From a virus, in the IMG/VR virus record IMGVR_UViG_3300009194_000007, positions 1-64,000 of that record: a stretch of 64,000 nt of DNA. The stretch is one strand, 5' to 3'. Under the pieces are notes generated by a model. It was not told where the DNA came from. It did no database searches and saw only the letters and a list, made by a program, of their open reading frames with translations. The position numbers and the translations under genes are program-made. How positions within the stretch are numbered: position 1 is the first letter of the stretch; every line of letters begins with the position of its first letter. Below are positions 20,069 through 52,132 of the stretch, in pieces.

Positions 20069-20821
20069 TCAGGCGGTGCCGTAGTCCGCAATCAGGAACT
20101 CTTTCACCAGACCGCTACGGGTGATGTCATCCAGCGTGTACTCGATCTTACCGACCATAGAGGCAGGCATCTTCTCCATCACCGTGTAGAGACGGTCGAA
20201 CCCGGACTTCTCGCGCTTGCGCTGAAGGTCACACTGCTTACGGTCGCCAAGGAGGATGATGCGACTGTGGTCCCCGATACGGGTGATGATGGTTGCCAGT
20301 TCGTCATAATCGCAGTTCTGCATCTCATCACAGATTACAATGCACCGGTCAAAGGTCTGCCCGCGCAGGAAACCGGTGGTAGCGAACTCAAGGTAACCCA
20401 GTGCCTTTAGATGCTCGTATCCATCGTTGAATGCCGGAAGAATCTTCTTCACGGATTGAATATAGGGGGTTTCGTAAGGGGCATTCTTCTCATTCAGATC
20501 ACCCTTGATGAAGCCTTGGGCGCGTGACTCAACCGCAGAACGAATCAGGATGATCTTGTCGAACTCGGTACTTTCGTCCAGCACGAGGCTCAGGGCGGCG
20601 TACAGGGCCACCATCGTCTTCCCGGTGCCTGACGGGCCTGTGGCAGTGATCAGCGGGGTATCATCATAGAAGAGTCGGAGGAAATTGGATTGGTTGAGAG
20701 AGGAAGGGGTCAGGGAGCATAGGTCATGGGGTGTAAACTTCTTACGCTTGCCAATGTCATGAACGACTGAATCCGGTTCACGCTTGGTGTTGAACTTGTT
20801 GCGCTGTTTTGCCTTTGCCAT
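20069..20821 (-). CDS. phoH: PhoH-like P-loop ATPase
   Basis: 250 residues. Walker A is ATGPSGTGKT (about 59-68), the IRSAVESRAQGFIKGDL block matches the PhoH hallmark (RP.VE.GE.LGFLPGDL type), and Walker B lies in CIVICDEMQNCDYDEL. RGQTFDRC is also typical. PhoH-like proteins are common in T4-like phages; the domain is fused to helicases or RNases in bacteria, but the phage role is not known. A CTAAATAC late-promoter motif lies 39 bases upstream, and a strong terminator follows. Confidence 0.9.
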   Translation of the reverse strand: MAKAKQRNKFNTKREPDSVVHDIGKRKKFTPHDLCSLTPSSLNQSNFLRLFYDDTPLITATGPSGTGKTMVALYAALSLVLDESTEFDKIILIRSAVESRAQGFIKGDLNEKNAPYETPYIQSVKKILPAFNDGYEHLKALGYLEFATTGFLRGQTFDRCIVICDEMQNCDYDELATIITRIGDHSRIILLGDRKQCDLQRKREKSGFDRLYTVMEKMPASMVGKIEYTLDDITRSGLVKEFLIADYGTA

Positions 20822-21868: not shown

Positions 21869-21891
21869 AAATGCCCCTCTAATTGAGGGGC
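21867..21891 (-). terminator. Terminator at the end of the adhesion island
   Basis: On the minus strand GCCCCTC, 5-base loop, GAGGGGC, then ATTTTTATTT. It ends transcripts of the tail-fibre run; the T-run coincides with the stop codon of the converging plus-strand gene. The 60 bases between it and 21955 hold nothing else I can call. Confidence 0.8.
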
Positions 21892-21954: not shown

Positions 21955-23154
21955 TTATGCGGTTGGTGCTACTAGATTATTCTGGATATAGTAGCGTCCG
22001 GGGTCTACTTCAAAACCACCACTGGCGGAAAAATATTGTCCAGAAAAAGTGTATGTTCCGAGGTCAGCCATCGTTGAATCAAACTTTCTATACCTATAAT
22101 TGGAGTCTTGAATATATACATTCGAATCATTGTCTACTGCTACACCACTTGCCCCAGCATAACCTGATGTAAAGGCTGATACATCATTTCCCTGAAAGTC
22201 ATACGCTTTAAGGTTACTATTAGTACCACAGTATACTCTTTGCATTTTAGGATCAACTGCTATAGAATACGAAAGATAGTAATTTGTTCCGCCCAGATCA
22301 ACACGCCATAGTTCAGTCATGGTTGGATCGAATTTTATCAGTGTGCATTGTCTGCTTGTGGTTGAATAGTCATAAGCATACAAAATATAACAATTCATGG
22401 AATCATCGACTGCTATATGCGGTAGTTTTGAATAACCACTATGATCGATTGTTATGTTGTTTTGTAACACGCCGTTTGGATCAACTCTAAACAAATGTAC
22501 GCCTACGTCGGTGGAGCCAGTACCAGCGCACCAAATGAATCCTTGTGCATCTACTGCAAAAGATACGAAATAGTTGTAGGAATTTGAAGGATTGACACTC
22601 CACACCAAAGCACCAGAAGCATCTAGTTTTGTTAGTGTTCTATCATCTCCACCAGCATACACATTACCGGCATTATCAATAGCTACATCTTTCACCGCTG
22701 CTGTAAATGAGTAAGACCACAGAACGTTACCATACGCATCTAATTTATAAACATCATTTCCTGTATCATTAACTACATAGACGTTTCCATTCACATCAGC
22801 AGTTATACTTTTTATATTTCCTGATACATACTTACTGAAACCGACTTCAGTAGAACCCCATGATGCTTTTTGCAATGAACTACTATAAGAACCATATACA
22901 CTCTGCTTGACGGTCGCAACGATTTCATCACTGAATGACTCATTCGTATCAGTGTAAGCTGACACCCTGTAATAATAGGTATTTCCAAATACAACCGTGG
23001 TGTCCTCGTACTCGAAAATATCCCGTGTGAGAGTCGCCAGAGGAGCGGGTAGAGTTCCATTAGGATCGATTGGAGTGTCCGACCGATAAACCTTGAAACC
23101 GATGGGAACCGTAGAGGCGTTTATGTCATCCCATTTGATAACTGCGCTAGTCAT
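21955..23154 (-). CDS. FN3 + beta-propeller adhesin, cassette 6
   Basis: 399 residues. Residues 1-85 form a fibronectin type III-like domain (FKVYRSDTPID; YYYRVSAYTDTNESFSDEI) shared as N-terminal module by five neighbours. From about 95 to 390 there is a propeller of NHL/PQQ-like blades: NVYVVNDTGNDVYKLDAYGN, NVYAGGDDRTLTKLDASGA and later copies. The blades are well diverged, unlike the fibres at 27876 and 33247. Such proteins are probably distal receptor binders or surface decorations; the ligand is unknown. It is the last gene of the island, just before a terminator. Confidence 0.75.
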   Translation of the reverse strand: MTSAVIKWDDINASTVPIGFKVYRSDTPIDPNGTLPAPLATLTRDIFEYEDTTVVFGNTYYYRVSAYTDTNESFSDEIVATVKQSVYGSYSSSLQKASWGSTEVGFSKYVSGNIKSITADVNGNVYVVNDTGNDVYKLDAYGNVLWSYSFTAAVKDVAIDNAGNVYAGGDDRTLTKLDASGALVWSVNPSNSYNYFVSFAVDAQGFIWCAGTGSTDVGVHLFRVDPNGVLQNNITIDHSGYSKLPHIAVDDSMNCYILYAYDYSTTSRQCTLIKFDPTMTELWRVDLGGTNYYLSYSIAVDPKMQRVYCGTNSNLKAYDFQGNDVSAFTSGYAGASGVAVDNDSNVYIQDSNYRYRKFDSTMADLGTYTFSGQYFSASGGFEVDPGRYYIQNNLVAPTA

Positions 23155-23179
23155 GTTTGATCTCCGTAATTTTCAATTC

Positions 23180-24493
23180 TTAGTAACTATGTATAACGTT
23201 AGTGGATGTTGATATAGGCTTAACCACTACTTGAGCCAGAGGGATTGCTGTATAACTATTAACGTCAAAATGTGTTTCACCGACAGGTTTCACTACCACA
23301 GAAGAAACGTCTATTGCTTTGGCAGTGTAGGTGTTCACCACATTCTCACTTCCATCAAATGGACTAAAAATGTAAGTCACTTCCTGAACCACATCGTTGA
23401 TGACTGTTTCAATTGAACCGGAAAAATACTTTACATTCCAAACTTCGGTACCATCATCCTTTAACCGGATGGTCGATCCGTCCGAACAACCAACATAGAC
23501 TTCACCCGATTCATCTACATCAACAGCGACCACATTAATGGTTGCTGGAGTAACCGCTTTGTCCCAGATCAGATTCAATGAAGTGTCGTATTTCTTCAGA
23601 GTTGCTCCGGCTGCCACATAAATCGAAGTATCATAGACTGCAAGTTGATAAACGGCTGTTCCAATATTTATTCCAGCGTTGACAATAGTCCCATCAACCG
23701 AAATAGCACCCATGTAATTGGCGTTTGTGATATAAAAGATGGTCGATCCTTGAATCGCCATGTACTTAGCAAAACCACCATTGGTAGTCACTGACCACAA
23801 TTCATTAAGTGATTCATCGAGTTTCTTAATGACTGCGGTAGAATACCTACTGTAGTAGATATTACGGTCTTTATCAGTGACCACCGATTTCAGAGCAGAT
23901 GTGTCCCTGATATAATTAACCTGATTGCCATCAAAGTCGTACACCCGCAAATACCAATCATCGTCAACCACATAAATTTTCGGCGGGAGATGATCATTAG
24001 GGAATGTGTCTATATACAGGCTCTTACTTTCACTGCCCGTATTAAAAGACCATCTTTGATTGATTGACACTCCATCCGTGGTATTGTACGCCTTTCGATA
24101 ACCATTATTGTAAACCGTATAAATGTTACCTAAGTGATCCAATTTGGTTTGTCTGGGGATGTAAGTATAAGGTCTGATTTTCCACACTTGGTTACCAGAT
24201 GGGTCTATCTTTGTGACAAAGCCATTCGAATCCGTAGCATACAAGTATGAAACGGTTTGTGCCGTAATGACGATCTCACCACTGAAAGCCGAATCAGTAG
24301 TCGTATACGATTCAATAACGTAGTGATAAGTGGTTCCTATCACCACATTCTTGTCCAGCAACTCCATCGTGTCAGCCGGAAGATCGGCTAATGGGGCTGG
24401 GAGGTTTTGAAGATCGATAGGGGACTCGGATCGATAGACCCGATATCCCCCTTCGATTGCGTTTGTGTCATACCATGTGAGTTTTATAGACAT
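23180..24493 (-). CDS. FN3 + beta-propeller adhesin, cassette 5
   Basis: 437 residues. N-terminal FN3 module (LTWYDTNAIEGGYRVYRSES) nearly identical in its first 20 residues to cassette 2 at 25636. The propeller (about 85-360) has blades such as LYATDSNGFVTKIDPSGNQV and VYVGCSDGSTIRLKDDGTEV. The tail contains short repeats ending in VVVKPVG / VVVKPIS (about 395-437). The tail may be a trimerisation or attachment element. Start has GATAG-type weak ribosome site; ATG at 24493. Confidence 0.75.
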   Translation of the reverse strand: MSIKLTWYDTNAIEGGYRVYRSESPIDLQNLPAPLADLPADTMELLDKNVVIGTTYHYVIESYTTTDSAFSGEIVITAQTVSYLYATDSNGFVTKIDPSGNQVWKIRPYTYIPRQTKLDHLGNIYTVYNNGYRKAYNTTDGVSINQRWSFNTGSESKSLYIDTFPNDHLPPKIYVVDDDWYLRVYDFDGNQVNYIRDTSALKSVVTDKDRNIYYSRYSTAVIKKLDESLNELWSVTTNGGFAKYMAIQGSTIFYITNANYMGAISVDGTIVNAGINIGTAVYQLAVYDTSIYVAAGATLKKYDTSLNLIWDKAVTPATINVVAVDVDESGEVYVGCSDGSTIRLKDDGTEVWNVKYFSGSIETVINDVVQEVTYIFSPFDGSENVVNTYTAKAIDVSSVVVKPVGETHFDVNSYTAIPLAQVVVKPISTSTNVIHSY

Positions 24494-24496
24494 CTA

Positions 24497-25363
24497 TCAC
24501 GACTCCCTTTTATATAATGTATCTATGTCTTGCGCTGTAAGTTTTCTATTGTAAATTCTAAGCAAATCGATTCCGTATTGTGGTGCATTGGCTATACCTC
24601 CCTTAGTGCGGGAGGATAATACCATTTGGCCTATGGCGGTATTGGTGTAAAAAGCTGTTCTACCAATTTCTGACACTTGCACATTGTCTATAAACATATC
24701 ACCGTCAGAATCCGCATAAACGTGATAAAAAGTTCCTACTGTTAAATTCTTTCTAATAGACAGTTCACTAGAATTGGTACCATTGGTAATGACGCCTATA
24801 GATTGAGAATTTGTCGAAATAGTAAACGTCTTCCCAGCGTCATACTCGATCTCCAATACAGAATTAAGCCCTGTTGATGCAGTATTCAATCTAACCCACA
24901 TTGACACCGCTATGAAGGCTCCCGGTACGGTTACGGGAGCGGTTACGTAATTTGTTCCATCAGTAGATATGCATTGACCATTTTGCCCAACGTCATAAGA
25001 TGGTGATCCTACTGCCCACACTCCATTATTTCCGTTGGTGATTTCAGATAAATCACCATCAAAAAGGTAGGTAGCCACAGTAGAGCCATCACCAAACACA
25101 TCTGGCGCAGCAATTGGTGTTGCGACGACTTTTATGCTATCACTAATCGAGGTTTTCCCCAGCTTTGTCGCTTCAATCCTATAGTAATAAGTTACTCCTT
25201 CAGTGACACCATAATCTTTGTATTCAGTCACAGTGCCTACTACAGTATCCAGAGCAGCAGGGAGCGCAGCAGGATCAATTGCTGATGTGCTACGATAGAT
25301 GTTAAATGTTTCTACGTTAGGGTCTTGGGTAGACCATCTAAGAACAACACCGCCATTTGCCAT
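24497..25363 (-). CDS. FN3 + LamG-like lectin adhesin, cassette 4
   Basis: 288 residues. FN3 module at 1-85 (FNIYRSTSAIDPAALPAALD; YYYRIEATKLG). Residues 95-288 look like a concanavalin/LamG jelly-roll: ATYLFDGDLSEITNGNNGVW, VSMWVRLNT, DNVQVSEIGR, IDLLRIYNRKLTAQDI. The last segment (LLRIYNRKLT..DI..LY) is a hallmark of LamG_3. These domains bind carbohydrate. The gene sits in the same array as the propeller cassettes and exchanges only the distal domain. Confidence 0.78.
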   Translation of the reverse strand: MANGGVVLRWSTQDPNVETFNIYRSTSAIDPAALPAALDTVVGTVTEYKDYGVTEGVTYYYRIEATKLGKTSISDSIKVVATPIAAPDVFGDGSTVATYLFDGDLSEITNGNNGVWAVGSPSYDVGQNGQCISTDGTNYVTAPVTVPGAFIAVSMWVRLNTASTGLNSVLEIEYDAGKTFTISTNSQSIGVITNGTNSSELSIRKNLTVGTFYHVYADSDGDMFIDNVQVSEIGRTAFYTNTAIGQMVLSSRTKGGIANAPQYGIDLLRIYNRKLTAQDIDTLYKRES

Positions 25364-25377
25364 TGTCTATTTCTCCT

Positions 25378-25623
25378 TTAGGCTGCCGTGAACAAAGCTG
25401 CGTCACTGAATACTTCTACGCTATTAGGAAATACCGCACTCACTCGGTACCAATACTGTTGTCCCGTAGTTACCGCAGTATCGGTATAGGTGACTGTGTT
25501 TTCTGTCAGTTCGGCGATGAAAGCCGGTAGAGACGCCGTATCGAAATATGCATCCCCACGGTATACTCGGTATTTAACTTCGAGTTCGTTAGTATCTGTC
25601 CAATTGATCGTTACTGTACCCAT
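25378..25623 (-). CDS. Stand-alone FN3 domain, cassette 3
   Basis: 81 residues containing nothing but the FN3 module (YRVYRGDAYFDTASLPAFIA; YWYRVSAVFPNSVEVFSD), ending where other members continue into a binding domain. It may be a short decoration protein or a cassette that lost its distal domain. Ribosome site is weak; ATG at 25623. Confidence 0.7.
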   Translation of the reverse strand: MGTVTINWTDTNELEVKYRVYRGDAYFDTASLPAFIAELTENTVTYTDTAVTTGQQYWYRVSAVFPNSVEVFSDAALFTAA

Positions 25624-25635
25624 ATTAAAACTCCG

Positions 25636-26700
25636 TTATGCTTGTGTCTGCTCTGCATTAGTGATGATTGGCTTGTTGTAAGAGTAATACCCGGTCGAAC
25701 TACTCTTAACAGGTTGTATATCTGAAGCGAATTGCTGTTCACTGGTACCGTTGGTTATAACCGGTTGGTTGTAACCAAAGTAGACGCCAGTCGTATTAGT
25801 AACCGGGAACACATAATCTTTCGGTAAGAGTTCGAGAACGGGACGCCAGCCGTATGCTGCCGCAAAAGCGTTTGAACCCGTGCTATTGAACATACTCATG
25901 CCGTTGTAACCCCTAAAAACCGCATAATTACTAGCATAAGTATGATGTTCTTGACACCACGTTGCGGTGCCGGATGAGGTACCACCTACATCCAAATCGG
26001 TGTTCGTGTAATTGACCCAATTAGCCCCTGATTGGGAAGACGGAACATCGACATGGACTTTGTAAATCAACTTATTCCATTCTGAAACTTCTGAACCCGC
26101 TGGATCAGCCGTGTTTCTTGTAAGCGATGAAGGATCACTTTCAGCACCGGTAAGGAGACGAAGTTTGAAAGCATAGCCACCTATGGTGATTATTTTGTCT
26201 CCATACACCGCGTTCGCCGCGTTGATAGCATCCCAAGTCACGGAGTATCGATATGTCTTCTTGGCAACGAAAAGAATCTTTCCATCAATAGCAAACTTCA
26301 ACCACGGTTCAGTTGGGTTTTTACTCGTCCCTTCAGTCAAACCAATATCGCTTGCGAGGGTATCCCCATCAATCAGAGTCGTCGTATCGACTTCACCCAA
26401 GAATCCAGTTGTACCGTAATCGCCACCAACGAAAGTAGTAGACCCCGGACCTAAGTATAAATCTTCTGCCAGAATCGTAATCTCATCACCAACGACTTCA
26501 TCTGATCCTTTGTAGGCAGAAACCCGATAGTAATAGGTGGTTCCTACTACTGCCGTGCTATCCGTGAACTCTCGAACATCCGCCGCAACATCACCGATGG
26601 GAGTCGGCAGGGCAGCAGGGTCCATGGGAGATACCGAGCGATACACCCGGTAGCCTCCTTCAATCGCATTGGTATCGTACCATGTTAATTTGATTGCCAT
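25636..26700 (-). CDS. FN3 + lectin-like receptor-binding protein, cassette 2
   Basis: 354 residues. FN3 module at 1-80 starts MAIKLTWYDTNAIEGGYRVY. From about 100 a domain with KIITIGGYAFKLRLLTGAE, WNKLIYKVHVDVP, WCQEHHTYASNYAVFRGY and YGWRPVLELLP resembles phage tail receptor-binding domains of C-type-lectin-like appearance. The tail has two copies of a Y-N-P-I-T-N unit (YNQPVITN; YNKPIITN). The fold call is by pattern only. Confidence 0.68.
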   Translation of the reverse strand: MAIKLTWYDTNAIEGGYRVYRSVSPMDPAALPTPIGDVAADVREFTDSTAVVGTTYYYRVSAYKGSDEVVGDEITILAEDLYLGPGSTTFVGGDYGTTGFLGEVDTTTLIDGDTLASDIGLTEGTSKNPTEPWLKFAIDGKILFVAKKTYRYSVTWDAINAANAVYGDKIITIGGYAFKLRLLTGAESDPSSLTRNTADPAGSEVSEWNKLIYKVHVDVPSSQSGANWVNYTNTDLDVGGTSSGTATWCQEHHTYASNYAVFRGYNGMSMFNSTGSNAFAAAYGWRPVLELLPKDYVFPVTNTTGVYFGYNQPVITNGTSEQQFASDIQPVKSSSTGYYSYNKPIITNAEQTQA

Positions 26701-26709
26701 GGAATCCCC

Positions 26710-27555
26710 TTAGACGTTAGCGCCAGACACATAAGACGGTTCATTGAGATTAAACTGAATGCTTTCCACGGAAGACTGTAATGGAATAACCGTTCCATAA
26801 GCTACTTCCCATTGCTTGGTGTAGTTTTCATCCAATTTGATCAGGCGATTGCCATCTTCCGTACAAACGAACAAATTGTCCTTATAATCAGTGCGGGCGT
26901 CGTGAACAGCAGCCGCAAAGGTGATTCTGTCGAGTTCATTCCCATTAGTGTCCAGATAGCACACCACACCTTCCTTACCGCCAACGACAATATTCCCGGT
27001 GCGTGTGAAAGAAATGGAATTGGGTTCGTCGGTCAGTCCTACATATATCCATTCATAACTACTTCCACTTCCATCCACTTTAGATAATGATGTGACAGCA
27101 AAGTTAGCATCCCCGACGACCAGCATGGTGTCATTTACGTCGATTGAGGTGACAGACGGACCCGATGACAAGGAACCTTTCGATACGTTCCACAATTCGA
27201 CACCATCGGTAGATACAGATTTAATCCTTCCATCCGCAAACCCAATAAAGGATTGACCGGTTGCATAATCGACCGCCATTGCACCAATGATCACTGTTCC
27301 ATCCCCGTATGACCATAGCTGGTTTCCATTCGGGTCCAATTTGAACAGGGTACCGGCTGTCGAAGTGACATATACACTTCCTTGATCGTCAATTGCAACA
27401 CAATTCAATGATGAAGCGGAAGGGTTGACGCTCCAGACTTCTACACCGGAAGGATCGACCTTTCTAACTTTGTTGTCGTCTGATGCCAAATATGAATATC
27501 CATTAACATCATTGACAACACTATTTACGATTCCACTGGGTGGAGTAACTGCCAT
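26710..27555 (-). CDS. Beta-propeller part of a frame-split FN3-propeller adhesin, cassette 1b
   Basis: 281 residues, all propeller blades (SYLASDDNKVRKVDPSGVEV, SVYVTSTAGTLFKLDPNGNQ, QSFIGFADGRIKSVSTDGVE). It begins at ATG 27555, inside the end of the FN3 gene at 27525-27863, in the -1 frame relative to it. In cassettes 5 and 6 the two parts are one protein. There is no good ribosome site before the ATG, so it is made either by re-initiation or by frameshifting, or the gene is broken. Confidence 0.7.
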   Translation of the reverse strand: MAVTPPSGIVNSVVNDVNGYSYLASDDNKVRKVDPSGVEVWSVNPSASSLNCVAIDDQGSVYVTSTAGTLFKLDPNGNQLWSYGDGTVIIGAMAVDYATGQSFIGFADGRIKSVSTDGVELWNVSKGSLSSGPSVTSIDVNDTMLVVGDANFAVTSLSKVDGSGSSYEWIYVGLTDEPNSISFTRTGNIVVGGKEGVVCYLDTNGNELDRITFAAAVHDARTDYKDNLFVCTEDGNRLIKLDENYTKQWEVAYGTVIPLQSSVESIQFNLNEPSYVSGANV

Positions 27556-27863
27556 AGCTGGTTTCCATCCACGTCAATGCTTTCTATTCTTTGGGTAACC
27601 GCCACATACACATTCTGATCAGGGACCGCAAAAGCGTGAATCTGATCCCCATAAACGGAATCAGCCCCCTTATAGGCTTCAATTAGATAGTAATACTCCG
27701 CACCGAAGGTGACCGAAGTATCACTGTACAGCATCGTATCCGCTGGGAGGTCAGCGACATGAGCAGGTAGGTTGTTGAGATCAACCGGGGCACCATCGCC
27801 CCGGTAAACCCGGTATCCATCTTCGATCCCATTTGGATCGTACCATGTGACATCAATCTTCAT
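27525..27863 (-). CDS. FN3 part of a frame-split FN3-propeller adhesin, cassette 1a
   Basis: 112 residues. FN3 module at 1-80, then the start of a first propeller blade (NVYVAVTQRIESIDVDGNQL) that breaks off after 10 off-frame residues. The blade continues in the overlapping gene at 26710-27555. GGAGAG lies 7 bases upstream of its ATG and a late-promoter motif a further 15 bases up. First gene of the cassette array after the big fibres. Confidence 0.72.
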   Translation of the reverse strand: MKIDVTWYDPNGIEDGYRVYRGDGAPVDLNNLPAHVADLPADTMLYSDTSVTFGAEYYYLIEAYKGADSVYGDQIHAFAVPDQNVYVAVTQRIESIDVDGNQLWQLLHPVES

Positions 27864-27875
27864 GTATCTCTCCGT

Positions 27876-30800
27876 TTATGCGGTGTATTTAGATTTGATC
27901 AGGACTGGTTTAACGAGTTCTGTTTGTATTTTGGTGCATGCGACCGAGTTAACATAACTCGTATGTCCACTGAACGTCCAAACTTCATTTCCGTCAGGAT
28001 CAATCTTTTTAACGGTGTTGTCCGCAGAACCACTGTAGACATTACCAGAGGAATCAACGGCTACACCCCGAACATAACCAGTGTGACCACTGAACGTCCA
28101 AACTTCACTTCCGTTAGGATCAATCTTCTTAACGGTGTTATCGTAAGAACCACTGTAGACATTGCCTGAAGAGTCAACGGCTACTCCCATAACAATATTC
28201 GTATGCCCACTGAACGTCCAAACCTCACTTCCGTTAGGATCAATCTTTTTAACGGTGTTGTCCGCAGAACCACTACCACTGTAGACATTGCCAGAAGAGT
28301 CAACGGCTACGCTATAAACAGCATTCGTATGTCCACTGAACGTCCAAACTTCACTTCCGTCAGGATCAATCTTCTTAACAGTCTGGTCATAAGACCCACT
28401 GTAGACATTACCTGACGAATCAACGGCCACTGATCGAACAACATTCGTATGTCCATTGAACGTCCAAACTTCACTTCCGTTAGGATCAATCTTTTTAACG
28501 GTGTTGTCCGCAGAACCACTGTAGACATTACCTGAAGAGTCAACGGCTACTCCCATAACATTATTCGTATGACCACTGAACGTCCAAACTTCAGCCCCAT
28601 CAGGATCGATTTTCTTAACGGCGTAGTCGTTAGAACCACTATAAACATTACCAGAGTAATCAACGGTTACGCCGTTAACAGTTTTCGTGTGACCACTGAA
28701 TGTCCAAACTTCACTTCCGTCAGGATCAATCTTCTTAACAGTCTGGTCAGTAGAACCACTGTAAACATAGATAGGAACATATTCAGCGAATGTGAAACTC
28801 ATCTCCGCCCACGGCGTTGTATAATACTGACCGTGGAAACGAACACGAACCTTGGCATCGGTCAATCCGTAGGTTTTTCCATCTACCTCAAATTTGAATG
28901 TGGTCGGTTTATCAAAATTGATATAATCACCCACCAAAACCTCACCAGTATCGATTGACACAACTTCCCAATCCACACTGACAATCTTTTCATTGGTGAC
29001 GGAGAAAGGTGCTACCGAGAATGAACCACCCGCATAAGGGAATGCGTTGACATCGTAACTCGTGGACAGAACCGGATCAGCAATGCTGTAGCTGGGCGTG
29101 AATTGAACCGGATCACTCCAATCACTCGGCCCCGCATAATTGCCGCCTGAGTAACGAACATGAATCTCGTACTGGACGCCAGAAGTCAGAGACTCAGACA
29201 CAATCATGTCTTCAATCTCAACAAAACGAGATTGAGTTTCCCACACTACACTCCCGTCAGAAACCTTAGTCACCTGCCACTGGGCAGTCGCACGCGGTTC
29301 TCCATAGAGATCATCCTTGATGAACTCATAGTCATTGAAGGTCGCCCGGAAACGCGGTTCAGCCGGAGTTGCGTTACGATCAGACCCCAGATAGGTCAGC
29401 AGCGGTTTGATAGCAAACGTGAACTTATCCTTGGTCTGGAAAGCCAGCCAGCTTGACCATGATGAACTATGACCATCATCCCCATGATAACGAAGGCGAA
29501 CTTCATAATTGCGAGAGACCTGAAGGATTCCGAAAGGAATAGAAATCTTAGTCAGATTGGTGGTATCATTCAGGCTCTCATAGATCACTTCCTGAGTATC
29601 TGCATCGCGGATAACCCAATCAGACGCGATATGGGAATTGCTGACTCCATTACGAGTGTAAGGTGAACCGATGAAGCCAACCACACTATCAATCTGAGTG
29701 GTGTCCGCAACCATAGATGCGACACTCGGAGTCTGAATGTAAGCACTGGGGACCGTGAAGGTTCCTGTCTTACTCCAAATACTAACATACCCAGTGGACG
29801 CATTCACATCACGGGCGTGCCAGATGTAGGTTTTGGTCGGATCGAGGGCCATGGTAACTTGATGCCCATCGAAGTTCTCGTTAGCAGTGTAAATCGGATT
29901 CGAGAAATCCCCGCCTTCAACATCGATTTCAAACTGACGATACAGGCGTTCATCGACGGAGAAGAACTTACCGAACTTGGTTCCCAGCAGATACGGCTTT
30001 TCACCTTCGGCTACATTCCCATTGATCGGAGAAATCAACAGGGGCGCACGCTGATCATAGGCATCGCCCGGCGCACGAACCTTCATCCAATCTTCACCCG
30101 GAGGTTCCTGAGACGTTTGACGAATAGCCATGTACGCATCACCCATATGGGTAACCGTCTGACCTTCATCGTAAGGAGCATCCAGTGCGTCCCACGGGTT
30201 GAAACCGAAGTCTGCGTCCACAAAACCGGCATTGATTTGTGTGGTGTCTGCCATGGTAAAGATCAGTTCGCCATTGACGATAGAAGAACTAGAAACGCTC
30301 AGTCCATCATCACCTTTGATAATTCCGGGGCGAATGATTTCACTGTCAGACATGGTGATGACCAGTGTGCCATCGATATCGATATAGGCATCAACCACAT
30401 CACGACCATCAGCACCAAGCACCGCTTTGGGAGGCGTTTCTGTTCCATCGGAAAGCTGAACAACCAGTTCACGATTGGCGGTGAGATAAGCACCACTCAC
30501 ATAGGTACGTTTCAGAGGTCCAAGATCGTCAATCGTTCCATCGGTACGTTCCAGTTTGAGACGATCACTGGCAACATACATACTGTCGATACGAACCGCA
30601 TCCGTACCGGGAGGAATGTTACCCGCAATGATCGGAGTGGGTTGATTCGCCACATCGATGAAAAGATCATCATTGGCATCGATACCGGCACTGTTGATAG
30701 TCCGATCCAATGACACCGTGGACGTTACGGTATTGCCATCAGAGGTATCAGCCGCAATCTTCAGATCAGGGGTCAGATAGACGTTAGTCACGTCCACACC

Positions 30801-33164
30801 CTGCGTAGGACCGAGATTGAACTGGGTAGTACCATCGGTCAGGGTAGCAATCAAATCGCCGTTAGAATCGACAGTGAGCGTGTCTAGCCACACATTCGGT
30901 TTACCGTCGATGAGTCCGATGATCTGATCACCCGCAAGATCAAGAGACGCCACCAGTTCACGATCTGCATTGATCGAAAACGCAGTAATGTAATCGGCAT
31001 CAGCACCATCAATGACGCCGGGACGATACTCGGTTCCATCTGCCATGGTCATGACAAATTCACGAGTGCCGCTTTCAATGGTGATAGTATCAATCAGTTG
31101 TGCATTATCGCCATTTACGCCGGGGACAATAAACTGACTACCATCAGACATATCGATGGTGTATTGGTCATTGGCGAACGTTATTGTTGTCGGATAAGGC
31201 GCATCGGTACCATCAATCGGACCCACGGTAAGGTCTTTGGAAGACCCGTCCGGTTGACGCATTTCGGCAATCAGAGTCTTAACCTTATTGACGGTATCAA
31301 CACGAAAAGCGGTCGGGTATGCGCCATCGACGCCGGTATAACCTTCGATATCCTTGAAGGTCAGAGTAGTACCATCAGACATATTGAACTGAAGGCTACG
31401 ATCACTTTGAATGCCAGCCCCATCGAGCGGGAAATAGCCATCCAGACCGTCCTTTCCATCAACCCCATCGGTGCCTCGAACCGGACCAAAGGTTGCAGTA
31501 GTGCCGTCAGACAGTGTGACATTGAGGTTGCCGGTGGCATCATCGACCAGAGCATCATTAACACCATTGATCGTCACATCAAAACTGCCTGTATCGAAGG
31601 TGAAGGTCAACGTGGTTCCATTGATAGCGATATCTGTCAGAAGTCCACCGTTAACCCCATCGATGCCATGGATATCACCGAGATTGGCAGTCGAACCATC
31701 GGCAAAAGTAAAAATCAGTTCAGAATTGACCATATCGACTTGAACTTGCGTCGGTTCCCTAACAACACCGACATCATAGGTTGCACCAAGAACAGATTGG
31801 AGAACCATGTGATTGGTGTCGCTGTCGATTGACATGGAAATGATGACATCACCAACCTGACCATTCAGACCATCGGTTTGCCCGGCTTCAATATCCGGCA
31901 GGGTAGGATCGGTGAGCGAGAACGTCAGAACACCTTTCGGGGAGATAGATGCCTTATCGATTTTGACTGCATCGACATGAATCAAGGCTTGGTCGCCATT
32001 CATGTCATCTACCACATGAAGGACACCTTGATCGATATAGGCATCCGTAACAGACCCACCATCGACCGCATCTTTTCCATCCTTACCAACGATCTTACCA
32101 CACGGGAGTGTATAGGCATTGCCATTGATGGTGAGATCAAGAAGCAGTGCGCCCGTGGAACCGGTATAGGCATTGGTCACCGTGGCATCACCAGCCACGT
32201 TTTCGATGCTGAAATTACCCGCAGACAGAGTGGTGCCATCGGTCAGCGTGAATGACAGTGCGAGATTGGTATCGTCATAATGGATAGTCTTGACGTAAGT
32301 GGAATCGGTACCATCAACACCATCCGTTCCATCTGACCCATCGATGTTACCCAGATCATTGATGTTCTGATTAGAATCCGTGAACATCAGATGACGCTCA
32401 CCATTCACATCAGTGATTTCAGTGCTGGCAACTTCATAATCAGCGGCAGGTTTGTTGATTACCGGAACGTTCTTGACAGTCAGTGTGGTGCCATCGGTCA
32501 AATCCATTCCAATGGTTTCTGAAGTCAAATCCAGATCAGCAGTGGTAATATAGACGCCATCCTCGCCCGGTTCACCAGTGATATCTTTATTGATCGTGGT
32601 GCTGGTTCCATCCGTGAATCCAATCGTTAGATAGCCATTCGAATCCAGCCCCGCTGATGCAATCTTTTGGCCCCCCGCCAGATCAGAAATGTTACCAACG
32701 ATGGTGGAAGCACCGGTACCATCGATAAATTCCACGTCCCCATTGGGGTGGATGGTAATCGTGGAAGTCGTTTCACCATCAGTTCCGACAATACCGGTAA
32801 AGGTATTGGACGTGCCATCATCCTCGCTTACCGTAAGATCGCCGTTGGTCATGGTGATGTTATCGACACCAATGGCATCGTGACCCACCACGGAGCCCGC
32901 GATGAAAGAAGAACCATCGGACAGGGTAACTTCAAGGTCTTCTCCCGTGATTACCATGGTATCGATACCAATGGCATCTTTACCGTGATACGAGGAATAG
33001 TCCATCGCGTTAAGGTGGTCTTTGACGACCTTGGCGAGTGACGGGATGGTTTTGTGTTCTAGGTTAATTACAGCCGTGTCGTCCTTGCTGATTACATCTC
33101 GATACAGTTCAGATGCTTGGACGCACCGGGCAATAGCTAGGCGGTAGTCATTGATCGTTGCCAT
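27876..33164 (-). CDS. Giant tail fibre with C-terminal seven-blade propeller (fibre B)
   Basis: 1,762 residues from the ATG at 33164, which has GGAG 6 bases upstream (33179 is the in-frame alternative). Residues 1-60 are a helical attachment region (YRLAIARCVQASELYRDV). From about 65 to 1030 runs a repeat of about 40-45 residues of the form (D/N)GxL..TLSDGTTxxxGxVxGxDG, beta-structured with GxDGxxG turns. About 1080-1480 holds FN3-like domains. The last 290 residues are seven WD-like blades, GHTxxVxxVAVDSSGNVYSGS.D.TVKKIDP.GSEVWTFS. Fibre A upstream is a full-length paralogue. The propeller is expected at the distal tip as the receptor binder. Confidence 0.85.
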   Translation of the reverse strand: MATINDYRLAIARCVQASELYRDVISKDDTAVINLEHKTIPSLAKVVKDHLNAMDYSSYHGKDAIGIDTMVITGEDLEVTLSDGSSFIAGSVVGHDAIGVDNITMTNGDLTVSEDDGTSNTFTGIVGTDGETTSTITIHPNGDVEFIDGTGASTIVGNISDLAGGQKIASAGLDSNGYLTIGFTDGTSTTINKDITGEPGEDGVYITTADLDLTSETIGMDLTDGTTLTVKNVPVINKPAADYEVASTEITDVNGERHLMFTDSNQNINDLGNIDGSDGTDGVDGTDSTYVKTIHYDDTNLALSFTLTDGTTLSAGNFSIENVAGDATVTNAYTGSTGALLLDLTINGNAYTLPCGKIVGKDGKDAVDGGSVTDAYIDQGVLHVVDDMNGDQALIHVDAVKIDKASISPKGVLTFSLTDPTLPDIEAGQTDGLNGQVGDVIISMSIDSDTNHMVLQSVLGATYDVGVVREPTQVQVDMVNSELIFTFADGSTANLGDIHGIDGVNGGLLTDIAINGTTLTFTFDTGSFDVTINGVNDALVDDATGNLNVTLSDGTTATFGPVRGTDGVDGKDGLDGYFPLDGAGIQSDRSLQFNMSDGTTLTFKDIEGYTGVDGAYPTAFRVDTVNKVKTLIAEMRQPDGSSKDLTVGPIDGTDAPYPTTITFANDQYTIDMSDGSQFIVPGVNGDNAQLIDTITIESGTREFVMTMADGTEYRPGVIDGADADYITAFSINADRELVASLDLAGDQIIGLIDGKPNVWLDTLTVDSNGDLIATLTDGTTQFNLGPTQGVDVTNVYLTPDLKIAADTSDGNTVTSTVSLDRTINSAGIDANDDLFIDVANQPTPIIAGNIPPGTDAVRIDSMYVASDRLKLERTDGTIDDLGPLKRTYVSGAYLTANRELVVQLSDGTETPPKAVLGADGRDVVDAYIDIDGTLVITMSDSEIIRPGIIKGDDGLSVSSSSIVNGELIFTMADTTQINAGFVDADFGFNPWDALDAPYDEGQTVTHMGDAYMAIRQTSQEPPGEDWMKVRAPGDAYDQRAPLLISPINGNVAEGEKPYLLGTKFGKFFSVDERLYRQFEIDVEGGDFSNPIYTANENFDGHQVTMALDPTKTYIWHARDVNASTGYVSIWSKTGTFTVPSAYIQTPSVASMVADTTQIDSVVGFIGSPYTRNGVSNSHIASDWVIRDADTQEVIYESLNDTTNLTKISIPFGILQVSRNYEVRLRYHGDDGHSSSWSSWLAFQTKDKFTFAIKPLLTYLGSDRNATPAEPRFRATFNDYEFIKDDLYGEPRATAQWQVTKVSDGSVVWETQSRFVEIEDMIVSESLTSGVQYEIHVRYSGGNYAGPSDWSDPVQFTPSYSIADPVLSTSYDVNAFPYAGGSFSVAPFSVTNEKIVSVDWEVVSIDTGEVLVGDYINFDKPTTFKFEVDGKTYGLTDAKVRVRFHGQYYTTPWAEMSFTFAEYVPIYVYSGSTDQTVKKIDPDGSEVWTFSGHTKTVNGVTVDYSGNVYSGSNDYAVKKIDPDGAEVWTFSGHTNNVMGVAVDSSGNVYSGSADNTVKKIDPNGSEVWTFNGHTNVVRSVAVDSSGNVYSGSYDQTVKKIDPDGSEVWTFSGHTNAVYSVAVDSSGNVYSGSGSADNTVKKIDPNGSEVWTFSGHTNIVMGVAVDSSGNVYSGSYDNTVKKIDPNGSEVWTFSGHTGYVRGVAVDSSGNVYSGSADNTVKKIDPDGNEVWTFSGHTSYVNSVACTKIQTELVKPVLIKSKYTA
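27885..27892 (-). promoter_or_regulatory. Late-promoter motif CTAAATAC before the FN3 cassette array
   Basis: Minus-strand CTAAATAC inside the last codons of the upstream fibre gene, 22 bases before the ATG at 27863. The octamer encodes residues SKY, so coding and promoter constraints coincide. Confidence 0.5.
27935..28769 (-). repeat. Seven near-identical 120-bp propeller blade repeats, fibre B
   Basis: Tandem units of 40 codons (one unit has 42 through an extra GS in GSGSADN near 28265-28280). Copies differ mainly at the residues after GS, after D in SxD, after GHT and three to four residues later. Nucleotide identity between copies is very high, including silent positions, and they match those of fibre A at 33255-34090. 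Confidence 0.9.
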
Positions 33165-33194
33165 CGATATCTCCATCATTAAGATTTTTCAATG

Positions 33195-33210: not shown

Positions 33211-33241
33211 AGGAAAAAGAAAACCCCTCCGAAGAGGGGTT
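33211..33241 (-). terminator. Terminator between fibre A and fibre B
   Basis: On the minus strand AACCCCTC, loop TTCG, GAGGGGTT followed by TTCTTTTTCC. It is an 8-bp stem with a UUCG-type loop, 6 bases after the fibre A stop. Confidence 0.85.
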
Positions 33242-33246
33242 AAAGT

Positions 33247-36200
33247 TTAGTGCTGGTCAACGGCTACTCCCATGACATAATTCGTATGTCCACTGAACGT
33301 CCAAACTTCAGCCCCATCAGGATCAATCTTTTTGACAGTGTTATCATAAGCACCACTGTAGACATTACCAGAGGAATCAACGGCCACTGATCGAACAACA
33401 TTCGTATGTCCACTGAATGTCCAAATTTCAGTTCCGTTAGGATCAATCTTCTTAACAGTCTGGTCATAAGACCCACTGTAGACATTACCAGAGGAATCAA
33501 CGGCCACTGATCGAACAACATTCGTATGTCCACTGAATGTCCAAATTTCAGTTCCGTTAGGATCAATCTTCTTAACAGTCTGGTCAGAAGAACCACTGTA
33601 GACATTGCCAGAAGAGTCAACGGCTACGCCGTTAACAGCATTCGTATGCCCACTGAATGTCCAAATTTCAGTTCCGTTAGGATCAATCTTCTTAACAGTC
33701 TGGTCAGAAGAACCACTGTAGACATTGCCTGACGAATCAACGGCCACACCCCAAACATTACTCGTATGTCCACTGAACGTCCAAACTTCATTTCCGTTAG
33801 GATCAATCTTCTTAACAGTCTGGTCATAAGACCCACTGTAGACATTGCCTGACGAATCAACGGCTACGCTATAAACATTATTCGTATGCCCACTGAATGT
33901 CCAAACTTCACTTCCGTTAGGATCAATCTTCTTAACGGTGTCGTCCTGAGAACCACTGTAGACATTACCAGAAGAGTCAACGGCCACACCCCAAACATTA
34001 TTCGTATGCCCACTGAATGTCCAAACTTCACTTCCGTTAGGATCAATCTTCTTAACGGTGTCGTCGTAAGAACCACTGTAAGAATTGATAGGGACGATGC
34101 TTATGGTGAACACGCTCAGATCAGTAGACCAATCACTTGTCACTGAACTTCCATTGAATCGAACCCGAATCAAAAGATCACTGGAAATGTAATCAGCAGG
34201 AATATTTACATTCACTGACTCCAAGTTGGTAGTGTCACCAAGAGATTCCCATACCACAGTCTGAGTTACAGGTTGAACCACCTGCCAATCAGTGCTGACG
34301 TGAGTATCGTTAACACCATAGAAAGCAGAAGCAGACACCAAACCATCAAGCGGGAACGCATTCACATCTTCGGTAGTTGAAATCACCGGAGTGTCAATGT
34401 AAGCCGCTGTCGTAACATCCTGCCAGTTACTCCACGCTGTCCAACCGAAACGCTCTGCCTGATATCGCACACGCGCCTGATAGGTTTCATTCAGTGCCAG
34501 TGCCGGAGATACGGTGATGTCTTGAAGGTTCGTGGTATCTCCATAGGAACTGAACATCATAACACCGTCAGACTTGCGAACGACTTCCCAATCACTTGCC
34601 ACATGCGTATCCGTGTATCCACCCAAAACGCTCAGGGGCGTTGACAGGAAACGCGGGGTGGTTGAGGCTTGGGTTGCATCCCTACCACTATAAGCAACAC
34701 TAGGCGCACCCAGATAGTCGAAAGACGCTTCGGTTGTAAAGGTCACCGCCGCACTCCAAGCGGAAACCAGTGCGCTAGAGTTATAACGTACCTGAACCTG
34801 ATACTCGGTAGACGGAGACAGATCGCCCATCGGAACGTACCAAGAAGTCAGGTTGATCGTATCCGCCAGTGAGGAAGACACCACGGTACCACCAGCCGTT
34901 TCGATAACTTGCCAATCGGTGCTGACATGAGTTTCAGAACCAGTACCAGCCGTAACAGCAAACGGACTAGAAGTAAACGCCGTGGCACCAGAAGCCGCAG
35001 CCGGGTCTTCATTCGAATCAAGAGACACAACAGGCTGATCGATATACGCAGTGGGCGTAGTGAACGAACCAGAATCACTCCAATCACTGATATACCCAGT
35101 CAATGCACTCACATCACGGCAGCGCCAGATATAAGCAGACCCGGAAGTTAGGGCAGTTGCCACTTCATGACTGTCAGAGTTTTCTTGAGCCGTATAAATC
35201 GGTGCACTGAAATCCCCAGTGGAAACGTCTACCTGAAACTCACGGTAGTCACGCGGATCACCAGATACAATCGGAGCAAACGGAGAGCCGACCAAATCAG
35301 GATTCAGGTTCTCAGCCGTTCCAGACGGAGATACAATGGTCGGTTTGCGGATTTCGGTAATCTCATCACCAAACGCAAACGCACGCCATTCGGTAGACGG
35401 CGGTTCGGTCGTTGCCCCATCCACCAGTGCGATATACATGCCACCGTTGTGAACAACAACACGATCCTGTTGATAACTGTTGCCCGTTTCCCAGAGGGTC
35501 AGACCGGCACCAGAACCCACGTTACCCGCACGCTCGGTAGACCCATCGGTATAGGTAATAACCAGATCACCATTCAGGAACACTTCAGCCTTGTCGATAG
35601 CAAGACCCGCAGACCCCATGACATTACCAACCAGAATGTCACCATCACGTCTCATTTGGAATGTCAGGTCTTCATTGGCATCGATGGTCGCCCCAGTCAC
35701 ATAACGACCGTCCAGACCATTCACACGGCCCGCGTTGATGGTAGACGAATCAGACAGGGTGATGATCAGATCGCCAGTCGAAAGATCAATGCTGGATACT
35801 TCGATGCGGCTGATATTACCAACCGGGATCACCGTCCCATCGGTGAGCGTTACACTCACATCATCGTTGGCATCAATAGAAGCAGATGCCATGGACGTGC
35901 CATCGGTCGCCTTAACCACACCCGGAACCAGAACCGTGCCATCGGTCAACATCAGTTCCAATTCGCCATCGGTGTTGACGTTAGCAGAATCAATACCACG
36001 ACCCAGTTGACCTGCATCGATAGTCGTTCCGTCCGTCATGTCGAAGACCAGACGATCAGACAAATCGATTGTGGCATCCACGATACCCACGCCGTCCACG
36101 GCTTGGCTATACGGGATGCTAGTGGTTGTCCCATCGGTCAGAGTGGTGGTGACATCGGTATCAGTTGACACCATGGTATCGATACCAACCGCATCAACAC

Positions 36201-38445
36201 CTTTCACGGAAGGAATTGAAACGCTGGTAGAATCCGAAAGATCAATGTTCAGATTCGTTCCATCGAATGCCATGTTAGTAATGGTTCGACCGTCTTCACC
36301 CTTAACCATAGGCACACTGGTAGAAGTGCCATCGGTCAGAGCGATATTCAGATTGGTTCCATCGTAACTCAGGGTATCAATCGAAATGCCATCCTGACCC
36401 GCAAGCCCAGAGAACTGAGTAATGGTACCGTCTGACATGGTGAACACGAGATTGTCATTGGCATCGATAGTAACACTGTCCATCGATACACCATCAACCC
36501 CTTTGATAGCCGGAACAGTGACAGTCGATGAATCAGACAGACTAATCAGAAGATCAGTGCCGTCAAAATTGATCGTCGTTACCCCAACGCCATCGGTACC
36601 ATCCGCACCAACGATGTCAGATACGATCTTTTGTGATCCGTCTTCGAGGGTGATGATGAGTGATTCACTTTGAACCTCGATAGAACTGACGGAAGCACCA
36701 TCCTTGCCATCGGCACCATCAGTCCCAACCACATTTCCGCAAGGGAAGATAGTTCCATCGTACAGTTCGATGTTGAGATCACCCGCGCTGTCAATCGAGG
36801 CATCCTTGATGTTTCGAGAAACAGGACCAGTGGTGAAATCGCCAGACTGCGACGCGGTGAAAGTGAACGTGCCCGTGGTATTATCGAATGACACACCAGT
36901 GATAGTGTCACCATCAGTACCATCAGTCCCCACAATGCCCGTAAACGTCTTCTGAGAGCCGTCAGACAGGGTGATGACCAGATCATTGCCACTCAGTGCG
37001 GCGTTCGTCTCAGTGGGTGCAAAGACGCTTCCAGAGGTGGTTACGGTATTGCCATCAGAGAAAGTGAAGGTGAGTAGTCCCGACGCATCCATGGTCACAT
37101 TGGAAACAGAGACACCATCGACACCATCGACACCGCGCACAACGCCCACATTCTTGTCGAAGGTAGTTGCATCGCTACGGGTATAGGTAAGAATGAGTTC
37201 GCCAGTGGTTTGATCCACATTGGCAGAGGTCAGAACACTCCGATCCACATCACCGGCTGTCATGGTCGAACCATCAGACATGGTGAAGGTCAGGGTGTCC
37301 CCATTGAAGGTGGCAGCAGTGATACCAACACCATCAACACCATCAACCCCATCCTTACCATCGATAACGCCCAGATCGTAAGTTTTAAGATTGCTGCCAT
37401 CCCAAACGGTCAGCGTCAGAACTCCAGTGTTCGGGTCTTTGGTGGCATCCGCAATGCTGACGTTGGAGGCATCGATAACCGTCTTCTTGACCATCCCGAC
37501 CGGCAGAGTAGAACCGTCAGAGAAATCGAAGACCAGTTCGCCCGTTGTATTGATAGATGCATTGGTAATATCTTTACCGTCAGCACCATCAATACCATTG
37601 GTCCCATCAAGACCGGTTACGCGACCCGTATCAATGGTGGTACCATCAGACAGGGTAATGATGAGGTGCCCTTCGGTAGCCGGATCGGTGCTGATAGTGG
37701 CACTCTGGACTGACTTGGTAGTTCCATCGATCACCGTCTTGCTGACCTTACCGGCGATAATAGTATCACCATTGGACATCAGAAGGTTAAGCTGACCCTT
37801 GCCATCCACATAGGCGGTAACCACGTTAAGACCGTTAGCACCTTTGGCACCAACAACGCGACCCACATTTTCAACCGTGCCATCGGTATAGACAACAACC
37901 AGATCACCTTCGTTGGTAATGTCTGCATCCTGAGCAGCAACCCCACCAAACTGAGTCACATCGCCAGCGTCGATAGTGCTACCATCCGACAGATCAACCT
38001 TGAGTCGTCCGGTGTCGATATAGGCTTTGGTAACATTCACCCCATCCGCACCAACGACTCGACCCACGTTGAAGTTCGTGCCATCGTCCAGAGTAATTAC
38101 CAGATCAGTACCAACGATAGCGGCATTGCTAACCGACTTACCATCTTTCCCTTCGACCCGACCAAGATTCAGAGAAATGCCATTGGTGAGATCGATAATC
38201 AGGTTGCCACTTGCATCGATTTTAGCGGTGCTGAGGCCAATCGCATCTTCACCATCCAGAGCGCCGCTGGCAACCAGCGACGACAGGTAGAGATGAACAC
38301 GACGAGCCAGAGAAGGAACAGTTTCACCATTCGCATTCAGAATGACTTCTTCTGTCTTACTCTTTGAAAGGATTTCATTGATAAGACGATTGACTTCCTG
38401 CGCCTGTTGCGCGGAGTCATACAGCATTTGTTCAAGTGAGTTCAT
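33247..38445 (-). CDS. Giant tail fibre with C-terminal seven-blade propeller (fibre A)
   Basis: 1,732 residues, the same plan as fibre B. A helical head (MNSLEQMLYDSAQQAQEVNRL) is followed by about 1,000 residues of collagen-like/beta repeat (NASINTTGELVFDFSDGS; GADGKDG turns), four FN3-like domains (for example YIWRCRDVSALTGYISDW) and seven nearly identical propeller blades. The protein ends in the seventh blade, so the last strand probably closes with the N-terminal edge of blade 1. FN3 domains and repeat rods diverge from fibre B far more than the blades do. It precedes fibre B with a terminator and promoter between. A chaperone-like gene lies just upstream. Confidence 0.85.
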   Translation of the reverse strand: MNSLEQMLYDSAQQAQEVNRLINEILSKSKTEEVILNANGETVPSLARRVHLYLSSLVASGALDGEDAIGLSTAKIDASGNLIIDLTNGISLNLGRVEGKDGKSVSNAAIVGTDLVITLDDGTNFNVGRVVGADGVNVTKAYIDTGRLKVDLSDGSTIDAGDVTQFGGVAAQDADITNEGDLVVVYTDGTVENVGRVVGAKGANGLNVVTAYVDGKGQLNLLMSNGDTIIAGKVSKTVIDGTTKSVQSATISTDPATEGHLIITLSDGTTIDTGRVTGLDGTNGIDGADGKDITNASINTTGELVFDFSDGSTLPVGMVKKTVIDASNVSIADATKDPNTGVLTLTVWDGSNLKTYDLGVIDGKDGVDGVDGVGITAATFNGDTLTFTMSDGSTMTAGDVDRSVLTSANVDQTTGELILTYTRSDATTFDKNVGVVRGVDGVDGVSVSNVTMDASGLLTFTFSDGNTVTTSGSVFAPTETNAALSGNDLVITLSDGSQKTFTGIVGTDGTDGDTITGVSFDNTTGTFTFTASQSGDFTTGPVSRNIKDASIDSAGDLNIELYDGTIFPCGNVVGTDGADGKDGASVSSIEVQSESLIITLEDGSQKIVSDIVGADGTDGVGVTTINFDGTDLLISLSDSSTVTVPAIKGVDGVSMDSVTIDANDNLVFTMSDGTITQFSGLAGQDGISIDTLSYDGTNLNIALTDGTSTSVPMVKGEDGRTITNMAFDGTNLNIDLSDSTSVSIPSVKGVDAVGIDTMVSTDTDVTTTLTDGTTTSIPYSQAVDGVGIVDATIDLSDRLVFDMTDGTTIDAGQLGRGIDSANVNTDGELELMLTDGTVLVPGVVKATDGTSMASASIDANDDVSVTLTDGTVIPVGNISRIEVSSIDLSTGDLIITLSDSSTINAGRVNGLDGRYVTGATIDANEDLTFQMRRDGDILVGNVMGSAGLAIDKAEVFLNGDLVITYTDGSTERAGNVGSGAGLTLWETGNSYQQDRVVVHNGGMYIALVDGATTEPPSTEWRAFAFGDEITEIRKPTIVSPSGTAENLNPDLVGSPFAPIVSGDPRDYREFQVDVSTGDFSAPIYTAQENSDSHEVATALTSGSAYIWRCRDVSALTGYISDWSDSGSFTTPTAYIDQPVVSLDSNEDPAAASGATAFTSSPFAVTAGTGSETHVSTDWQVIETAGGTVVSSSLADTINLTSWYVPMGDLSPSTEYQVQVRYNSSALVSAWSAAVTFTTEASFDYLGAPSVAYSGRDATQASTTPRFLSTPLSVLGGYTDTHVASDWEVVRKSDGVMMFSSYGDTTNLQDITVSPALALNETYQARVRYQAERFGWTAWSNWQDVTTAAYIDTPVISTTEDVNAFPLDGLVSASAFYGVNDTHVSTDWQVVQPVTQTVVWESLGDTTNLESVNVNIPADYISSDLLIRVRFNGSSVTSDWSTDLSVFTISIVPINSYSGSYDDTVKKIDPNGSEVWTFSGHTNNVWGVAVDSSGNVYSGSQDDTVKKIDPNGSEVWTFSGHTNNVYSVAVDSSGNVYSGSYDQTVKKIDPNGNEVWTFSGHTSNVWGVAVDSSGNVYSGSSDQTVKKIDPNGTEIWTFSGHTNAVNGVAVDSSGNVYSGSSDQTVKKIDPNGTEIWTFSGHTNVVRSVAVDSSGNVYSGSYDQTVKKIDPNGTEIWTFSGHTNVVRSVAVDSSGNVYSGAYDNTVKKIDPDGAEVWTFSGHTNYVMGVAVDQH
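33255..34090 (-). repeat. Seven near-identical 120-bp propeller blade repeats, fibre A
   Basis: Seven tandem 40-codon units. Units 4, 5 and 6 share the variant GTEIWTFS and differ at only a few codons; units 5 and 6 share GHTNVVRSV exactly. This suggests recent unit duplication or conversion within the array. Confidence 0.9.
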
Positions 38446-49782: not shown

Positions 49783-50655
49783 TTAGAATCCGATGACTAG
49801 GTATCGAACACCTAGTTTCTCTGCATTGGTATTTACCCCGCCGATGCGGGTAGCCCGAAGTTTTGCACCACCTGTATTTTGCTCGATAGCCCGAATGAAG
49901 AAATCTGTCCCTTCATGGTAATTGGCGGGATCAACTTCATACCCCACGGGGATAACCATCAATGTCTTGTTGGGCATCGCTTGGGGGAATGTCACATTCA
50001 GATCGAAATAAGAATGAATGTGATTGAAACTGCTAGACGGGTCAGCAGTATTATAAACCGATGCAGCTTGAACCTCAGCATACTGAATGATGATCTCGCG
50101 CTTCTTGTCATCACTGGAATCCTTAACAGGAAACTTGAAGACGAAGGTATCATTGCCGAACAGACTTGCTCCAAGAATCCCTTCGAAAAGAGACAGGGGC
50201 GTAACCGCCTTAGAATCGTCTGTACCGGTCGATGTTTCTAACCCGGTAGCCAAGGCTACCAAGCCCGCGAAAGCATGTGTGGAGTCCATAGCAGCGAAAT
50301 TTGAGGCAGTGATAACCGCTGTGGTACTTGCCTTATCCGTTGCTTGAATATCTGTCGCCAATTCCACCACCCCAACAGACGAGGTAGTGGCATATTGGGT
50401 GACATTCTCTAGGAAACGAATCTTATTGTTCCATTGGTCAATCCATTTGGTCAGCGTTTTGACATCAGACGGATCGCCAGACGGTCGAACCGGTGCTTGT
50501 TCAAGGAAGTTTTGCACCGTAACCTTGACATCGGTGCCCTCCGGGGAAGAGGACACGTCCGATTTATCGACAATCACAACTTCATCATTGGCACCAATCG
50601 TGGTGACCTCTGTGAGTTCTGTAAAACGAATATACTTACCGAGTGTTGAAGCCAT
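49783..50655 (-). CDS. Tail fibre protein, 290 aa
   Basis: The start ATG at 50655 overlaps the stop of the upstream propeller gene (TAATG); starting at 50703 would add residues out of character. Contains TTSSVGVVELATDIQATDKA, the fibre repeat, then TPLSLFEGILGASLFGNDTF, and a C-terminal tip (FPQAMPNKTLMVIPVGYEVD; YLVIGF) related to that at 48902. Together they look like two subunits of short fibres. Confidence 0.72.
   Translation of the reverse strand: MASTLGKYIRFTELTEVTTIGANDEVVIVDKSDVSSSPEGTDVKVTVQNFLEQAPVRPSGDPSDVKTLTKWIDQWNNKIRFLENVTQYATTSSVGVVELATDIQATDKASTTAVITASNFAAMDSTHAFAGLVALATGLETSTGTDDSKAVTPLSLFEGILGASLFGNDTFVFKFPVKDSSDDKKREIIIQYAEVQAASVYNTADPSSSFNHIHSYFDLNVTFPQAMPNKTLMVIPVGYEVDPANYHEGTDFFIRAIEQNTGGAKLRATRIGGVNTNAEKLGVRYLVIGF
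49829..49836 (-). promoter_or_regulatory. Late-promoter motif GTAAATAC
   Basis: Minus-strand GGTAAATACC, 58-65 bases ahead of the ATG at 49771, inside the end of the upstream fibre gene. Confidence 0.45.
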
Positions 50656-52130: not shown

Positions 52131-52132
52131 AA

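Follow-up and report, generated by a model that had tools for sequence, protein, structure and literature searches.

Which proteins are encoded by a row of phage genes that share one N-terminal module and differ in what follows it, and are their distal parts still being exchanged? The question is raised by six consecutive minus-strand genes (U1 to U6) that run from 27863 down to 21955 in a stretch of viral DNA of 64,000 nucleotides (the window), which belongs to a virus record of 101,610 bases. An earlier note on this DNA had described them, in order of rising coordinates, as units with a common FN3 module of 80 residues that continue as propeller, propeller, LamG, nothing, lectin-like and propeller, and had proposed that recombination at the FN3 end could swap the receptor specificity of these adhesins. 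The genes are separated by gaps of 3-25 nt, a GGAG-like ribosome site precedes each start (6/6), and all products open with the common FN3-like head of about 80 residues (Table 1). The DNA of the region had no match in 50,697 phage records. U1 is interrupted by a frame break between 27555 and 27525, where its two frames overlap. A programmed frameshift was considered unlikely, as no classical slippery heptamer was seen at the junction, and the split may have arisen in sequencing or assembly. The break lies near a repeated blade motif, and copies of a 16-nt repeat are found at 27568, just before it, and at 27329.

Table 1. Array genes and neighbouring features of the window.
Feature	Position	Strand	Evidence
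PhoH-like gene, conserved boundary of the variable interval opposite the terminase	20069..20821	-	45-61% identity in four relatives
Terminator-like hairpin downstream of U6, closing the inferred operon	21873..21891	-	Consensus scan only
U6, FN3-like head and propeller	21955..23154	-	PQQ_2 6.8e-8; fold match to propellers
U5, FN3-like head and propeller	23180..24493	-	phrog_8401 1e-19
U4, FN3-like head and LamG	24497..25363	-	PF13385 2.5e-7 (Pfam)
U3, bare FN3-like head, 81 aa	25378..25623	-	
U2, FN3-like head, U2-type distal domain (about residues 98-292) and low-confidence tail (306-354)	25636..26700	-	
U1b, remainder of the U1 propeller in a different frame	26710..27555	-	PQQ_2 5.5e-14; frames read
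U1a, FN3-like head and first propeller strands, first gene of the array	27525..27863	-	FN3 HMM 2e-37; frame end 27525
Fibre 2, 1767 aa, WD-type propeller tip	27876..33179	-	WD40 6.5e-32
Terminator-like hairpin between fibre 1 and fibre 2	33222..33241	-	Consensus scan only
Fibre 1, 1732 aa, fibre 2 paralogue, WD-type propeller tip	33247..38445	-	39% identity over 1770 columns
Terminase large subunit, conserved gene that bounds the variable interval	40245..41903	-	phrog_36964 4.5e-44; synteny

The shared head proved to be real and specific to the array. When each head was left out and compared with an HMM of the other five, E-values of 2e-18 to 5e-32 were obtained, against a best value of 0.002 for shuffled heads (200 shuffles per head). 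None of the other ORFs in the 64-kb window passed 1e-3, and exactly six heads were found in the whole 101.6-kb record, positions 64001-101610 included. A Pfam search of the head gave no FN3 match; its profile matched solved FN3 domains in a PDB profile search (3mpc, E = 1e-5). In an AlphaFold model of U2 with a mean pLDDT of 84, the best PDB matches of the head were also FN3 domains, with a probability of 1.0 and E-values of about 0.01-0.02, none being below 0.001. By profile and by structure prediction, the head is thus predicted to adopt the FN3 beta-sandwich fold.

Behind this head we found four kinds of ending: a propeller, LamG, a U2-type domain, or none. The distal parts of U6 and U1 are PQQ/WD-type propellers, and U5 carries a propeller with a weaker match, so that the proposed order stood for the propellers (that of U1 being split), the LamG and the bare unit. 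It did not stand for the lectin-like part of U2, as neither a Pfam family nor a PDB fold matched this domain, and its reading as a C-type lectin was unsupported in Pfam, in PDB sequences and in folds. The domain, present in one of the six window units (U2 only), corresponds to a domain of giant-phage virion proteins, that of phrog_1062 and phrog_16120, and it gave 39 matches below 1e-3 in a viral structure library, almost all of them giant-phage virion proteins. The array shows one feature of modular receptor-binding proteins with an N-terminal anchor, namely a conserved N-terminus with non-homologous C-termini. At L128:9776-10657 and L142:9845-10624 the U2-type domain stands behind an Mtd_N head, the N-terminus of the Bordetella tropism determinant, which indicates that the distal domain itself changes heads.

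The neighbourhood of the array points to the tail. Fibre 2 sits 12 nt upstream of U1 as the first gene of the inferred operon, and since terminator-like hairpins follow fibre 1 and U6, a common transcript of fibre 2 and the six units is probable, judging from these consensus matches. This probable co-transcription speaks for a position at the tail end. Both fibres and two further proteins at 50655-53536 also have propellers at their tips, which we count in favour of the explanation that we prefer, with a probability of roughly 0.55: U1 to U6 would be accessory virion proteins, with an FN3-like plug and distal ligand-binding tips, located by preference at the tail end. The two proteins at 50655-53536 are adjacent and have a common N-terminal part (phrog_5417) and C-terminal propellers.

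The opinion of the earlier note that the array can recombine at the FN3 end could be assessed from the age of the sharing. At the protein level the identity between the window heads is 29-54%. Of 222 comparisons at four-fold degenerate sites, 63 (28%) gave the same base, where base composition predicts 26.5%; no two heads have more than 12 nt in a row in common, and the sole repeat of at least 16 nt in the array lies within one propeller. With four-fold agreement at random level and short runs only, the heads are saturated, and recent copying or conversion has left no trace in them. If the cassettes were actively recombining, with distal domains swapped by crossovers at the FN3 head, recent DNA identity would be expected at that module, which was not seen in the six heads. 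The one head with four different endings, the bare one included, does speak for such recombination, as does a recent event at the same locus in a relative (see below); in view of the saturated heads we nevertheless consider it improbable, and as a live mechanism the proposal is not supported for the FN3 heads. Recent exchange seems to have taken place elsewhere in this phage, at the ends of the two fibres. Their propeller tips (27950-28768 and 33257-34080) each consist of about seven tandem 120-bp repeats and are 80-89% identical in DNA, far above the 39% protein identity of the fibres overall, and have probably been homogenised recently.

The other half of the proposal, a constant head whose distal parts have been replaced, was borne out by the head tree. 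In this tree, whose 76 columns are few for 100 rows, U1, U2, U3, U5 and U6 formed one group (100/77) with U4 unplaced, the heads of Bordetella phage MW2 were the sister of these five (98/87), and U2 was nested within the propeller-bearing heads. The grouping of the five heads, with U2 among the propeller-bearing ones, suggests at least two distal replacements, and the simplest reading would be an old duplication in this lineage followed by these replacements. The split U1 and the missing distal part of U3 could also be taken as decay, in which case the units would be neutral or decaying paralogues with no function in the virion. This we regard as very improbable, because the conservation of the protein together with saturated synonymous sites indicates long purifying selection on the heads, and because five units have an unbroken frame, good ribosome sites and close spacing, and the break in U1 may be no more than an error of sequencing or assembly.

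The nearest phages found were the Alishewanella phages Slicko01 and Slickus01 and the IMG/VR records G001 and G003. The terminase of the window is closest to that of the Alishewanella phages, and the window phage is not of the phiKZ type. As far as the contigs reach, the relatives have the order baseplate, terminase, variable interval, PhoH, recombinase and helicase. None of the four had heads or propellers related to those of the window. The comparison across relatives that the note had asked for thus indicated that the array is not invariant, being absent from the nearest of them; a close relative with a reshuffled FN3 array, which would have spoken for active recombination, was not found. 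At 16096-18069 the window encodes a 657-aa protein that matches a PhoH-like family (54-383) and a UvsX-like recombinase (374-636); it is full-length in G001 and, as Slicko01 has its second half only, it is probably a fusion. The Slicko01 terminase gene (L023:19588-22122) is annotated as HNH endonuclease domain protein and encodes about 845 aa, in comparison to about 507 aa for the Slickus01 terminase, and probably carries an insertion.

The same interval in the relatives carries other sets of proteins with a common head and different bodies. In G001 (L195:14359-19395) four consecutive proteins combine a collar-like start with a WD-type propeller. In Slicko01 (L023:14870-19059) and Slickus01 (L024:15329-18143) a 27-residue N-terminus, TVTNKDRxAPFFFGN, is placed on several unrelated bodies. 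One Slickus01 gene of this set, missing in Slicko01, is identical to its neighbour in 90 of 91 nt covering the ribosome site and the head, and then diverges completely. Judged from the sequence, this 91-bp copy is recent and gives direct evidence of the assembly of a head with a new body at this locus, though not with an FN3 head. Arrayed proteins with common MKIDxLYESLLEE N-termini were also found (L023:7889-13559 and L024:8665-15267, Slickus01 having one extra copy), and one of them is an ADP-ribosyltransferase (ART-PolyVal, 2e-11). This N-terminus presumably resembles a capsid-targeting sequence, and the proteins are possibly a set of injected head proteins. The interval between terminase and PhoH in this phage group is a place of exchange for gene sets with common heads.

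Outside this group the FN3-like head is found in many giant phages. A tblastn search with U2 returned 188 phage records, the majority from giant phages that infect Pseudomonas, Erwinia and Salmonella. With an iterated head HMM, tandem N-terminal heads were detected in Noxifer, phiEaH1, phiEaH2, Stratton, Parshik, SNUABM_8, SNUABM_11, SNUABM_43, ChrisDB, CR5, RVTF4 and SPN3US; among these SNUABM_8 and ChrisDB have eight heads each and Parshik six (all Machinavirus), and CR5 has two. We further identified 35 IMG/VR loci with 2-8 heads each, some of which are the same isolates. The U2-type distal domain was present in 63 of 63 FN3-headed proteins of named giant phages, including all FN3-headed units of Noxifer, and in 108 of 110 of those in the IMG/VR loci (the other two both in L187), counts that are biased because most loci were fetched through that very domain. 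A head-first scan with a mixed set of heads gave twelve viral loci and three genome loci, where the giant phages again had the U2 type only and three smaller phages or prophages (L200, L208 and L205, see below) departed from it. A scan with three close heads, and single-protein IMG/VR scans with U2, the terminase and fibre 1, returned nothing. In SCTP-2 and PhiPA3 the U2-type domain occurs mostly without the FN3-like head.

In SPN3US the head is carried by gp146, 147, 149, 150, 152 and 153 (E of 7e-24 to 9e-29 with the iterated, window-seeded HMM). These belong to Paralog family B, which comprises 20 members (gp83, 138-154, 161 and 237), was detected in virions by MS and assigned to the head of the particle, as it persists in a tailless mutant, and whose function was not known at its description (PMC5694885). 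The view that no such array had been described is therefore superseded, as the same head stands in tandem in that family (PMC5694885). Homologues of the array proteins are thus virion proteins, and since the SPN3US relatives are assigned to the head and not to the tail, the window proteins are at most putative adhesins. They could, like Paralog family B, be located on or in the head of the virion, either at the capsid surface as T4 Hoc or internally, with distal domains acting there and not in tail adsorption. Besides the six FN3-headed members of this family, which was found in tailless particles, this is supported by an unassigned Hoc-like outer protein at the hexamer centres of SPN3US and by PHROG, which places the FN3-like head under head and packaging. 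We hold this location to be unlikely on balance, though a serious contender, because the operon partner in the window is a fibre, the window phage with its Alishewanella-like terminase is not of the phiKZ type, and three siphophage-type loci place the same head after a tail-tip gene.

These loci are Bordetella phage MW2, with two FN3 and F5/8 genes (gp79-80), a Marinobacterium prophage (L200, identical to L211) with FN3, LamG and F5/8, and L208 with FN3 and two LamG; in each, the FN3-headed gene lies at most about 10 nt after, or overlaps, the homologous tail-tip gene phrog_1101. A further locus, L205, has an internal FN3. The tail position is thus favoured by the fibre operon and the siphophage gene order, and the head position by the SPN3US proteomics.

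On the preferred reading, that of accessory virion proteins at the tail end, we infer virion incorporation in this phage, the plug role, the tail position and the binding of ligands. The FN3-like N-terminus would be a common plug that fixes each protein to one kind of particle site, and the C-terminal propellers, the LamG and the U2-type domain would face outwards and bind ligands on the cell surface or in the environment. U3 would be a tipless plug, either a filler of the same site or a remnant. The head duplications would be old and have occurred in this lineage, with the distal parts replaced afterwards. A bolder version, speculative and in our opinion unlikely as it stands, is that one kind of docking site takes any of the six FN3-plugged proteins, so that mixed binding domains on equivalent sites, with the bare plug tuning their number, would form a multi-specific adhesion coat on one socket. 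The same head bears recognised ligand-binding domains (LamG, F5/8, propeller) in the window, in Bordetella phage MW2 and in the Marinobacterium prophage, which points to a general role of the head as virion plug and, by analogy, to surface binding by the FN3-headed members of family B in giant phages. A shared plug makes the search for its socket a concrete test.

Modular tailspikes and receptor-binding proteins with an N-terminal anchor usually occur as one or two per phage and not as six in a row. The Klebsiella Przondovirus receptor-binding proteins and tailspikes have the same design of a fixed anchor with an exchangeable distal part, with a different anchor (PMC12692247). The siphophage-type loci resemble the window in the head itself and in having LamG among the distal domains, the others being F5/8, but they comprise one or two genes only, lack propellers and belong to a different tail type. 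Closest in arrangement are SPN3US Paralog family B and its Erwinia, Cronobacter and Pseudomonas counterparts, where the same FN3 head is found on part of the family, in tandem genes of one direction that encode virion proteins, with 2-8 heads per array. In contrast to the window, the FN3-headed members examined there carry the U2-type distal domain in all but two cases, both from one phage, and the units form regular gene groups whose products were located in the head by MS. No other phage record had the head and a propeller in one protein at useful coverage. Propeller, LamG, U2-type and bare units are mixed, beside fibres, in the window and not in Paralog family B, and among the cases found only the window combines several distal families within an array. 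The FN3 head and the tandem arrangement are thus known from giant phages, whereas the presence of several distal tips in one array appears to be the unusual feature of this locus.
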